Below are positions 3,724 to 8,859 of a stretch of DNA of 25,280 nucleotides, one piece after another; position 1 is the stretch's first letter; each line of letters opens with the position of its first letter. Source of the stretch: a virus. A model generated the notes under the pieces. The model did not search any database. It saw only the letters and a program-made list of their open reading frames with translations, and was not told the DNA's origin. The stretch lies in IMG/VR virus record IMGVR_UViG_3300046507_000296, positions 1 to 25,280 of that record; one strand, 5' to 3'. The translations under genes and the position numbers were made by a program.

Positions 3724-3742
3724 GGGCCCCCTAGTGGGGCTC
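3724..3742 (+). promoter_or_regulatory. 5'-UTR hairpin before TAXI-like gene
   Basis: GGGCCCC-CTAGT-GGGGCTC can form a seven-pair stem (one G-T wobble) with a five-base loop. It ends just before AAAAGGAG, the Shine-Dalgarno of the gene at 3758. It could stabilise the message or modulate ribosome access. A terminator is less likely because the T-run (3711-3716) precedes rather than follows it. Confidence 0.4.
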
Positions 3743-3757
3743 GCAAAAGGAGACCAC

Positions 3758-4639
3758 ATGAAGAAGCTGTTTTTGTTGATCGCTGCCGCGACCCTCGGTC
3801 TGTCGGCTGCAAGCTCGGCTCAGGCCGCCGAGAAGTTCCGCCTCTGCACCGGCAATGCCAAGCTGAACTACTACGCCGCCGGCCAGCACCTGAAGCGCCA
3901 CGCCGGCAACGTCGATGTCGTCGAGACCAAGGGCTCGCTGGACAACCTCGACAAGGTCACGGCTGGTGAGTGCGACGGCGCCTTCGTCCAGAACGATGCC
4001 CTGCTCGTCTACGCGCAACGCAACGCGAAGGCCATCTCGGCCCTGCAGCGTGCCGGCGTGCTCTACCAGGAGCAGGCGAACCTGCTCTGCAACCGCAAAG
4101 CCTACACGTCGTCCCGCATGGTCGACCTGAACTCCAACTTCACGGTCGCGATCGGCCCCGATGGCTCTGGCGCCAACACCACCTGGGCCGCCTTCGTTGC
4201 CGCCGACAAGGCTCGCTACGGCAAGGTCCGCACGTCCGACCTGACCGGCACCCTCGCGCTCAGCGCCGTCAACGACGGTTCGGAAGTGCAGTGCGCTCTC
4301 ATCATCACCGCGCTCAATGCCTCGATGCTCAAGAACGAAGCCCCGAAGTATGCGAGCGGCCTGGTGCTGGTCGAGACCGACGACCGCGACATGACGAAGA
4401 ACGCCAAGGATGCCCGCAACAACCCGGTCTACACCTACGGTGAGATCCCGGCCGGCACGTACAAGGGCATCCAGCCCTCCGGCATGTTCGGCTCCAAGTC
4501 GGTAGCCACCATCCAGGTTGATGCCGTGTTCGTCGCCAACCGTGACTGGGTCGCAGCCCACACCAGCGACTTCGAGAAGATCGTCGACGGCTTCGCCAAC
4601 GCCAAGCCCGACATCGAGAAGCTGGTCCAGCCGAAGTAA
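3758..4639 (+). CDS. exported TAXI-family TRAP solute-binding-like protein
   Basis: 293 aa. Start chosen after AAGGAG; the translation begins MKKLFLLIAAATLGLSAASS with a signal peptide likely cut after AQA (residue 23). The mature part opens FRLCTGNAKLNYYAAGQ and continues with VVETKGSLDNLDKVTAGECDGAFVQNDAL, the glycine-rich ligand-binding pattern of TAXI (NMT1-like) periplasmic receptors of TRAP transporters. Length fits the family (about 300 aa). No TRAP membrane subunits are nearby, so it is an orphan receptor. Phages rarely carry such genes; an accessory role in the lysogen, or binding of an unknown periplasmic ligand, is inferred. It is flanked by its own palindrome upstream and a strong hairpin downstream, the layout of a moron. 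Confidence 0.85.
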   Translation: MKKLFLLIAAATLGLSAASSAQAAEKFRLCTGNAKLNYYAAGQHLKRHAGNVDVVETKGSLDNLDKVTAGECDGAFVQNDALLVYAQRNAKAISALQRAGVLYQEQANLLCNRKAYTSSRMVDLNSNFTVAIGPDGSGANTTWAAFVAADKARYGKVRTSDLTGTLALSAVNDGSEVQCALIITALNASMLKNEAPKYASGLVLVETDDRDMTKNAKDARNNPVYTYGEIPAGTYKGIQPSGMFGSKSVATIQVDAVFVANRDWVAAHTSDFEKIVDGFANAKPDIEKLVQPK

Positions 4640-6984: not shown

Positions 6985-7226
6985 GTGAGCACAAGGCCTG
7001 GCTGTTCCGTCCTGACGACTACGTTCCGGAGACGCCTGAGGAGTGGCACGACGTGACCACGTACGGCGACGATTGGGAGGTCGAAATGAACATCTTCGGC
7101 GACGCCAATCTGCGCGGTACCTGGCGCCATCGGCCGGTCAGCTTCACCGATCGCAAGACGGATTGGGTTGTCGGCCGCCCGCCGACCGGCTTCTATGCGA
7201 AGCCCGAGGACAAGGCGGATGCCTGA
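6981..7226 (+). CDS. hypothetical protein, 81 aa
   Basis: Acidic, aromatic-rich small protein ([20 protein letters not shown]). It has several tryptophans and a C-terminal KTDWVVGRPPTGFYAKPED. ATGA overlap with the gene before, and the next start lies inside its last codons. No family recognised. Confidence 0.55.
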   Translation: MSEHKAWLFRPDDYVPETPEEWHDVTTYGDDWEVEMNIFGDANLRGTWRHRPVSFTDRKTDWVVGRPPTGFYAKPEDKADA

Positions 7227-7536
7227 CCCCGCGAACGACAATAAGAAGCTTGGCCAGATCTATACCTTTGACGAGGTCTGCGCCAAGCTGAGGATCAGCA
7301 GACAGTCGCTCACTGACCTGATCGCCGGCACCAACTTCTACAGCAAGAAGGGCCGCGTCTACCGTTTCTCGGACGCGGACCTGATGGCAATTTGGGAATC
7401 CATGAGATGCGCCTCTACCTCTACCAACGTTCACCTGGATCGAACTACGTCATCCGCGGCACCGACAGCGAAGGCTGTAAGGTCTTCAAATCTGCGAAAA
7501 CTACTGACAAAGCCACCGCGGAAAAAATCCGCATAA
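7219..7536 (+). CDS. excisionase-like helix-turn-helix protein
   Basis: 105 aa as open. Residues 12-58 (IYTFDEVCAKLRISRQSLTD, then GRVYRFSDADLMAIWESM) form a MerR/Xis-type winged helix-turn-helix: a first helix pair binding DNA, a wing (KKGRVYRF) and a final helix. Such genes directly before an integrase act as recombination directionality factors or local regulators. The ATG overlaps the end of the previous gene. The last 43 residues overlap the integrase reading frame out of phase and are of low complexity (S/T/K rich), so the functional domain probably ends near residue 62. The same xis-int overlap is familiar from alphaproteobacterial integrative elements. Confidence 0.75.
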   Translation: MPDPANDNKKLGQIYTFDEVCAKLRISRQSLTDLIAGTNFYSKKGRVYRFSDADLMAIWESMRCASTSTNVHLDRTTSSAAPTAKAVRSSNLRKLLTKPPRKKSA

Positions 7537-8564
7537 AGATGGAGAGCGAGCTGCTGTCAGAGGCGGTCCACGGCAAGAAGTCCGTGGTGACCTTCGACCA
7601 GGCAGCGTCGTCCTACATCGAGGCGGGCGGTTCGACGCGCTTTCTCGGCCAGTACGATGAACAGACGGACAAGATGACCGGGATTGCCGGGAAGCTGGAG
7701 GGCGTGAAGCTCAGGTCCATAACCCAGGCGGTGCTCGATAAGGTCGCGCTCGAACTGCTGCCGAATGTCCAGCCCGACACCCTGAACCGCCAGGTCTACA
7801 CCCCGTTCATTGCCGTTTGGAACCACGCGGTCGGCAACGAGTGGGCGGATTTCCGGAAGTGGAAGCGTCCGAAGAAGCCCAAGGGCACCCGCTCCTTCGC
7901 CGTCAAGAAGCGTCGGGTCGGCAGCTTCCCGACGACCTACGACCGGGCCTGCCCGTTCGTGTGCGCCATGTCGCCGGCCAACGCCATCGTTATGACCATC
8001 CTGTTCTACACGGGGATGCGGCCGATCGAGCTGTTCCTGATGGACCGGGAGCAGGTCAACGTCGCGAACCGGTGGATTACCCTGCCGTCGTCCAAGACGG
8101 GCGAGCCCCGCGGCGTGCCGCTGCACGAGTTCCTGGTCCCGCTGATGAAGGGGCTGCTCAAGCGGAAGGACGGCACCCGGCTTGTCAGGACGTGGGAGGG
8201 AGAGCCCTGGACGGTCGTGGAGGGCAATGGCGGCCAGATGAAGAAGGGCATCAAGAACGCCCGCAGCCGCACCGGCATCCTCGACATCGCGCCCTACACG
8301 GCACGCCATACGGTCTCGACCCAGCTCGTGGTCAATGGCGTCCACGAGTACGTCAAGGACCAGATCTTGGGCCACGTCGTCGACGACATGAGCCACAAGT
8401 ACACCGAGGTCCCGCGGGCCGCCCTGATCAAGGCGATCAACACCCTGCCGACCTTCAAGGCCTGGGCGAGTATGCCCTGGATGAGCGAGCCTCTTCGCTA
8501 CGAGTCGGATCGGCTGAAGCCTCTGACCAAGGAGAAGAAGGCCAAGATGGCCAAGTTGGCCTGA
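7407..8564 (+). CDS. int: tyrosine integrase
   Basis: 385 aa from ATG 7407 (MRLYLYQR, a typical N-terminus of this integrase class); an in-frame TTG at 7392 is the alternative. Residues 1-50 are an arm-type DNA-binding beta domain, 58-145 the core-binding helical domain and about 170-370 the catalytic domain. Catalytic residues: R205 in YTGMRPIEL, K230 in SSKTGEPRG, R300 in PYTARHT, H323 in ILGHVV and nucleophile Y332 in SHKYTEV. The histidine of the usual HxxR box is Y297, a substitution tolerated in this superfamily. It catalyses site-specific integration and excision. The tRNA-derived att core lies 88 bases downstream, with phased TGTGCA repeats on either side. Confidence 0.95.
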   Translation: MRLYLYQRSPGSNYVIRGTDSEGCKVFKSAKTTDKATAEKIRIKMESELLSEAVHGKKSVVTFDQAASSYIEAGGSTRFLGQYDEQTDKMTGIAGKLEGVKLRSITQAVLDKVALELLPNVQPDTLNRQVYTPFIAVWNHAVGNEWADFRKWKRPKKPKGTRSFAVKKRRVGSFPTTYDRACPFVCAMSPANAIVMTILFYTGMRPIELFLMDREQVNVANRWITLPSSKTGEPRGVPLHEFLVPLMKGLLKRKDGTRLVRTWEGEPWTVVEGNGGQMKKGIKNARSRTGILDIAPYTARHTVSTQLVVNGVHEYVKDQILGHVVDDMSHKYTEVPRAALIKAINTLPTFKAWASMPWMSEPLRYESDRLKPLTKEKKAKMAKLA

Positions 8565-8573
8565 AAAAGTGGA

Positions 8574-8592
8574 GTGTGCAAAATGTGTGCAG
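8574..8592 (+). repeat. left arm-type repeats (TGTGCA x2)
   Basis: GTGTGCAAAATGTGTGCAG carries TGTGCA at 8575 and 8586, eleven bases apart (one helical turn). It begins ten bases after the integrase stop. The same hexamer recurs three times on the other side of the att core. Best read as integrase arm-type binding sites. Confidence 0.6.
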
Positions 8593-8651
8593 CGATGACG
8601 AGAAGATCAAAAGCCCCCTTGTTTCATAGGGTCAAATGAGTTGGACCCGTG

Positions 8652-8698
8652 CCTTCACACGGGAGAGGTCGTAGGTTCGATCCCTACTGCGCCCACCA
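8652..8698 (+). other. attP core: 3' half of tRNA-Val(CAC)
   Basis: A 47-base stretch equals the 3' part of a tRNA: anticodon loop TTCACAC (anticodon CAC, valine) with GGGAG as the 3' side of the anticodon stem, AGGTC variable region, T-arm GTAGG-TTCGATC-CCTAC, acceptor strand TGCGCCC, discriminator A and encoded CCA. The 5' side of the anticodon stem does not pair properly and no D-arm or 5' acceptor strand exists upstream, so this is not a functional tRNA gene. Integration here would restore an intact host tRNA-Val. An inverted repeat GGGTC-N10-GACCC (8629-8648) sits just before it, possibly the end of the integrase transcript. 8699-8794 holds no gene. Confidence 0.82.
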
Positions 8699-8794
8699 TT
8701 CTAACCCCCTGAAATAACATACGGATTTCGAAACTTCGTGGCATACCACGGGGCTCCGAATACCGTCCAATACCAAGCACAGAACGTGAACCGA

Positions 8795-8821
8795 TGTGCA
8801 AAAGTGTGCAATCGGTGTGCA
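8795..8821 (+). repeat. right arm-type repeats (TGTGCA x3)
   Basis: TGTGCA at 8795, 8805 and 8816, ten and eleven bases apart. With the two copies at 8575 and 8586 they flank the att core about 60-100 bases away on each side, the geometry of integrase arm sites (P and P' arms). Confidence 0.6.
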
Positions 8822-8859
8822 GTCTGTTCTCCACCCGTTCACCCCGAGGACATCAAATC

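Follow-up and report, generated by a model that had tools for sequence, protein, structure and literature searches.

Integration at tRNA genes is well known. Islander (PMC4383910) lists 2083 islands centred on the anticodon, and 3760 that have a 3' fragment. In Bradyrhizobium, two reports (PMC9239051, PMC9174649) place symbiosis ICEs (symICEs) of about 0.5 Mb at a tRNA-Val gene. Here we analysed a viral contig of 25,280 nt, referred to as the window. Its region 8573-8822 is, with a probability of about 0.95, the attP of a temperate phage whose integrase recombines it with a Bradyrhizobium-like tRNA-Val(CAC) gene, the contig carrying the unintegrated P-core-P' arrangement. This model is based on what was observed: the core, the repeats, relatives collinear with the window, and integrated relatives in which both ends are present. 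The following features are used below:

7219..7536, + strand: small helix-turn-helix protein resembling Xis (excisionase candidate), gene overlapping int; Pfam HTH_17, PHROG
7407..8564, + strand: tyrosine integrase (int), 385 aa; Pfam Phage_integrase, PHROG integrase
8573..8592, + strand: P-arm, two TGTGCA 11 bp apart (candidate arm-type integrase sites); repeat search, spacing conservation
8652..8698, + strand: attP core formed by the 3' half of tRNA-Val(CAC), anticodon loop through CCA; sequence, tRNA comparison
8654..8660, + strand: TTCACAC in the anticodon loop, proposed as the 7-bp overlap, flanked by half-sites GGACCCGTGCC and GGGAGAGGTCG; inferred
8795..8822, + strand: P'-arm, three TGTGCA spaced by 10 and 11 bp (candidate arm-type integrase sites); repeat search, conservation

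The attachment module

Positions 8652-8698 read CCTTCACACGGGAGAGGTCGTAGGTTCGATCCCTACTGCGCCCACCA. These 47 nt comprise the anticodon loop, the 3' anticodon strand, the variable loop, the T-arm, the 3' acceptor strand, and an encoded CCA at the end. The int stop codon lies at 8564, leaving 87 nt before the core starts at 8652. A sequence-only reading had described a T-arm, acceptor strand and CCA with no 5' half, 88 bases after the integrase, and this description proved exact. ARAGORN detected no tRNA in the window, in which the 5' half of tRNA-Val is absent. It also detected none in an 11.7-kb left extension taken from a 99.97% identical contig (L004), and none in 2 kb from a second near-identical contig; the phage sequence examined thus contains no full tRNA-Val. 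The record contains a single copy of the 151-bp stretch surrounding the core. Full tRNA-Val(CAC) genes were found by ARAGORN in two viral contigs, L063 and L066 (GGGCGCATAGCTCAGCGGGAGAGCGTTCCCTTCACACGGGAGAGGTCCAAGGTTCGATCCCTTGTGCGCCCACCA). The core matches their entire 3' half except for two compensated T-stem pairs, confirming the proposed Val(CAC) identity. A chance match over 47 nt is not credible.

Among the loci compared, the 3' half occurs as five alleles: two with the T-stem CAAGG/CCTTG, distinguished by the acceptor, and one each with GTAGG/CCTAC (the window and its near-identical contig), GTTGG/CCAAC (L052), and GCAGG/CCTGC (L061). All five T-stem pairs are kept in every allele, showing that the core block behaves as tRNA sequence. 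Since the lone fragment yields no tRNA in the phage, the pairing fits a role in completing a tRNA on integration. The T-stem of the phage departs from the sampled Bradyrhizobium genes in two compensated pairs. It is conceivable, but doubtful, that only the anticodon-loop overlap must match and that integration swaps the host T-arm for one supplied by the phage. In that case, tRNA-Val T-arm alleles would pass between hosts with these phages.

A site-specific integrase with catalytic residues adjoins the core (Pfam Phage_integrase, E 6.6e-15; PHROG integrase, 2.8e-29). Residues R210, K235, Y302, R305, H328, and Y337 (numbering from 7392) are invariant across the alignment, with Y302 occupying the usual place of the first box-II His. 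The overlapping Xis-like protein matches Pfam HTH_17 (E 3.5e-7) and PHROG excisionase (1.8e-6), and its gene adjoins int in L005, L006, L011, L052, L099, and the Bradyrhizobium elements.

Five copies of the motif TGTGCA lie on the + strand between 8575 and 8821, on both sides of the core, where about 0.06 occurrences are expected per strand. The Poisson tail for five copies is 7e-9, an approximate value given that the word was picked after looking. On the same strand, 8560-8830 holds all five copies and every other 271-bp stretch of the window holds at most one. The P-arm spacing is common to L005, L006, and L052; L005 and L006 retain both the position and the spacing of the repeats, L052 nearly retains them, and the intervening sequence varies. 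As sequence, repeated arm-type sites are thus present on both sides of the core in the pattern expected of integrase binding, and the integrase may well bind them. Between the core and the P'-arm there is also a small inverted repeat, CGTGGCATACCACG (8735-8752), which is nearly kept in L005 and partly in L006 and is possibly a binding site.

The half-sites GGACCCGTGCC and GGGAGAGGTCG are complementary at 7 of 11 positions and form an imperfect inverted repeat whose centre is the anticodon loop. When inverted repeats with a 7-nt spacer were compared, GGACCCGTGCC-TTCACAC-GGGAGAGGTCG tied for best with a repeat in the T-arm. Identity among all att sites seen starts at or beside the anticodon loop. 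Our best guess is a crossover inside TTCACAC, in agreement with Islander subsite A (PMC4383910).

Relatives in phage form and in Bradyrhizobium

To the left of int, the window encodes a thymidylate synthase and an RNA ligase, and the extension from L004 adds a ribonucleotide reductase, a RecE-like exonuclease, and a DNA polymerase exonuclease subunit. To the right of the core follow a dCMP deaminase, a DNA methyltransferase, a dNMP kinase, a DNA transfer protein, an endolysin, and a tail protein. Phage-type genes had been described on both sides; the annotation agrees, and no chromosomal genes adjoin the site. Two further genes are of separate interest. The window encodes an NMT1-like protein at 3734-4639 (PF16868, E 7.4e-12; PHROG 6856), which is unusual in a phage and is kept in L005 and L006. 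Left of the window, a protein of the PHROG 'tellurite resistance' family (L144, 10315-10818) adjoins the ribonucleotide reductase.

The block of xis-like gene, int, and tRNA 3' half was found in three related phage contigs. The integrases of L005 and L006 are about 85% and 80% identical to that of the window, and both contigs carry the core in the same place, flanked on either side by homologous phage genes. L052 is more distant (integrase 62% identical) and keeps the order int, P-arm, core, P'-arm. The shared layout indicates that the P-core-P' order belongs to the phage and not to a chromosome junction.

Several viral records have other boundaries. L004 (IMGVR_UViG_3300047446_000083) ends 3 nt past the int stop, at window position 8567, and may be the integrated form of the window phage; the records of many other relatives likewise end at the integrase, as trimmed proviruses would. 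A 47.6-kb contig (L059/L066, IMGVR_UViG_3300021324_000005) contains a full tRNA-Val(CAC) gene and a displaced 3' fragment at separate sites. It represents a provirus at the same tRNA, and the integrase search did not recover it. The viral contigs searched contained no integrated copy of the window phage.

Integrated relatives with a rebuilt tRNA at one end and a displaced fragment at the other were found in Bradyrhizobium. In B. cenepequi (L069, L099), an integrase 75% identical to that of the window (90879-92033) ends 87 nt before a 47-bp tRNA fragment (92121-92167). The rebuilt, intact tRNA-Val(CAC) gene (C80:82534-82608) lies 9.6 kb upstream at the other end of the element. It is followed by TGTGCA repeats, so that repeats related to the P'-arm adjoin attL. 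Among 265 genomes of the genus, eight have an integrase relative at E <= 1e-60, and in seven of these a 47-48 nt tRNA-Val 3' fragment lies beyond int; in the eighth (G045) no linked fragment was found. The intact tRNA is on the same contig as the fragment in six of the seven, at distances of about 9.6, 12, 17, 23, 62, and 62 kb, and the order in these six is tRNA, element, int, fragment without exception. In four of the seven, int and the fragment are separated by 1.5-3 kb, and the fragment may be part of an adjacent element. No clean empty attB for the B. cenepequi element could be assembled from the genomes compared: in G166, about 7 kb separates tRNA-Val from the linked chromosome downstream of the element, and elsewhere that chromosome lies on a different contig or megabases off.

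Additional tRNA-Val 3' fragments were noted. A Bradyrhizobium-group genome without an integrase relative (G169; L142, C1:91617-92728) carries one, possibly left behind by an element since lost, at about 1 kb from its intact tRNA-Val gene. Copies of 45 nt (tRNA positions 31-75) at G045:C1:6159623-6159667 and G057:C4:116166-116210 are far from the intact tRNA and may mark other elements, such as the symbiosis ICEs reported at tRNA-Val.

The predicted alphaproteobacterial host and integration at tRNA-Val(CAC) are in line with these integrase relatives and linked fragments, and with the tail protein at the right end, which is 51% identical to protein D of Bradyrhizobium phage BDU-MI-1. The integrase has relatives in Rhizobiales and in other alphaproteobacteria. 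Together, the relatives support a Bradyrhizobium-like alphaproteobacterium (Hyphomicrobiales) as the putative host. A search for the exact 47-mer in complete host genomes had been proposed; it gave no match in 84,980 species genomes. A 39-base pattern of the window allele gave none in 391 genomes of the family, and no tRNA-Val of the genomes searched has the GTAGG/CCTAC T-stem, indicating that the precise host is unsampled. A 28-mer was also considered as a host marker and was rejected, its sole match, in one Bradyrhizobium genome, falling in a tRNA-Lys(CTT) gene.

Form of the DNA and alternative readings

The sequence-only reading had offered two forms of the DNA, unintegrated or assembled as a circle. 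The record is linear and without end repeats, as opposed to a circular contig or a virion genome with terminal overlap; the relatives are linear too, and the record is probably a fragment. A circular assembly thus gains no support, and an unintegrated form, with P-core-P' order, is the simplest reading of the contig. An identical P-core-P' junction would also arise inside a double lysogen, between two tandem prophages at one tRNA gene, and the linear record is compatible with such an integrated origin. However, this would require independent tandem copies in the lineages of the window, L002, L005, and L006, and the loci examined from these four contain no full tRNA gene, which makes a tandem junction very unlikely.

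The order of int followed by a 3' fragment is also that of attR, in which case the sequence beyond 8698 would be host chromosome or a neighbouring element, and the end of L004 just after int resembles a trimmed provirus border. Against this, L005 and L006, whose cores are identically placed, retain the downstream sequence and gene order, the genes from dCMP deaminase to tail protein lie on that side, and the P'-arm repeats follow the core; the true attR of B. cenepequi has none of these features downstream. As the downstream side is phage sequence and conserved, we rejected the attR reading, which is largely refuted and highly improbable. A tRNA remnant, accidental or decayed, that plays no part in integration is hardly worth considering: the core, the arm repeats, and the pairing of the T-stem are maintained from phage to phage, and the integrated relatives use the same 47 bp. 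An attP in an unintegrated phage contig remains the preferred reading. The attP role proposed from the sequence is supported by the core, the phage-form relatives, and the integrated Bradyrhizobium relatives.

Proposed integration model and comparison with known systems

For arm binding, crossover point, Xis role, and exact host, we infer the following model. The integrase would bind the TGTGCA arm sites and the imperfect inverted repeat at the anticodon loop, and attP would recombine with the tRNA-Val(CAC) gene of the host. The 3' half from the phage would join the 5' half of the host, rebuilding the tRNA at attL, and the host's own 3' half would be displaced to attR, beside int. The Xis-like protein would presumably aid excision.

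The analysis supports positions 8652-8698 as the attP core of a temperate soil phage, an ordinary new example of a standard arrangement. This gives an uncultivated temperate phage a predicted insertion site and, as host type, Bradyrhizobium-like Hyphomicrobiales, and one integrase-attachment module at tRNA-Val(CAC) is seen to be common to phages and small chromosomal elements.

As at the tRNA-gene sites of Islander subsite A (PMC4383910), a 3' tRNA fragment lies beside a tyrosine integrase, the target is rebuilt, the fragment is displaced, and the identity block is anticodon-centred; the principle is the same, whereas the phage, its integrase, and the arm repeats are new. The 9.6-kb element of B. 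cenepequi CNPSo 4026 (L099) shares the integrase (75% identical), the Xis-like gene, the P-arm repeats, and the position of the 47-bp core, but it is integrated, small, and without the structural genes of the phage. The symICEs (PMC9239051, PMC9174649) also integrate at a tRNA-Val gene of Bradyrhizobium, possibly a different one from tRNA-Val(CAC), and differ in their size of about 0.5 Mb. Bradyrhizobium phage BDU-MI-1 (KY940711) is related through tail protein D, but it is 121 kb long and has no match to the window integrase. The kind of site is well known: that of the window phage is a normal tRNA-type attP, and the phage itself is new.
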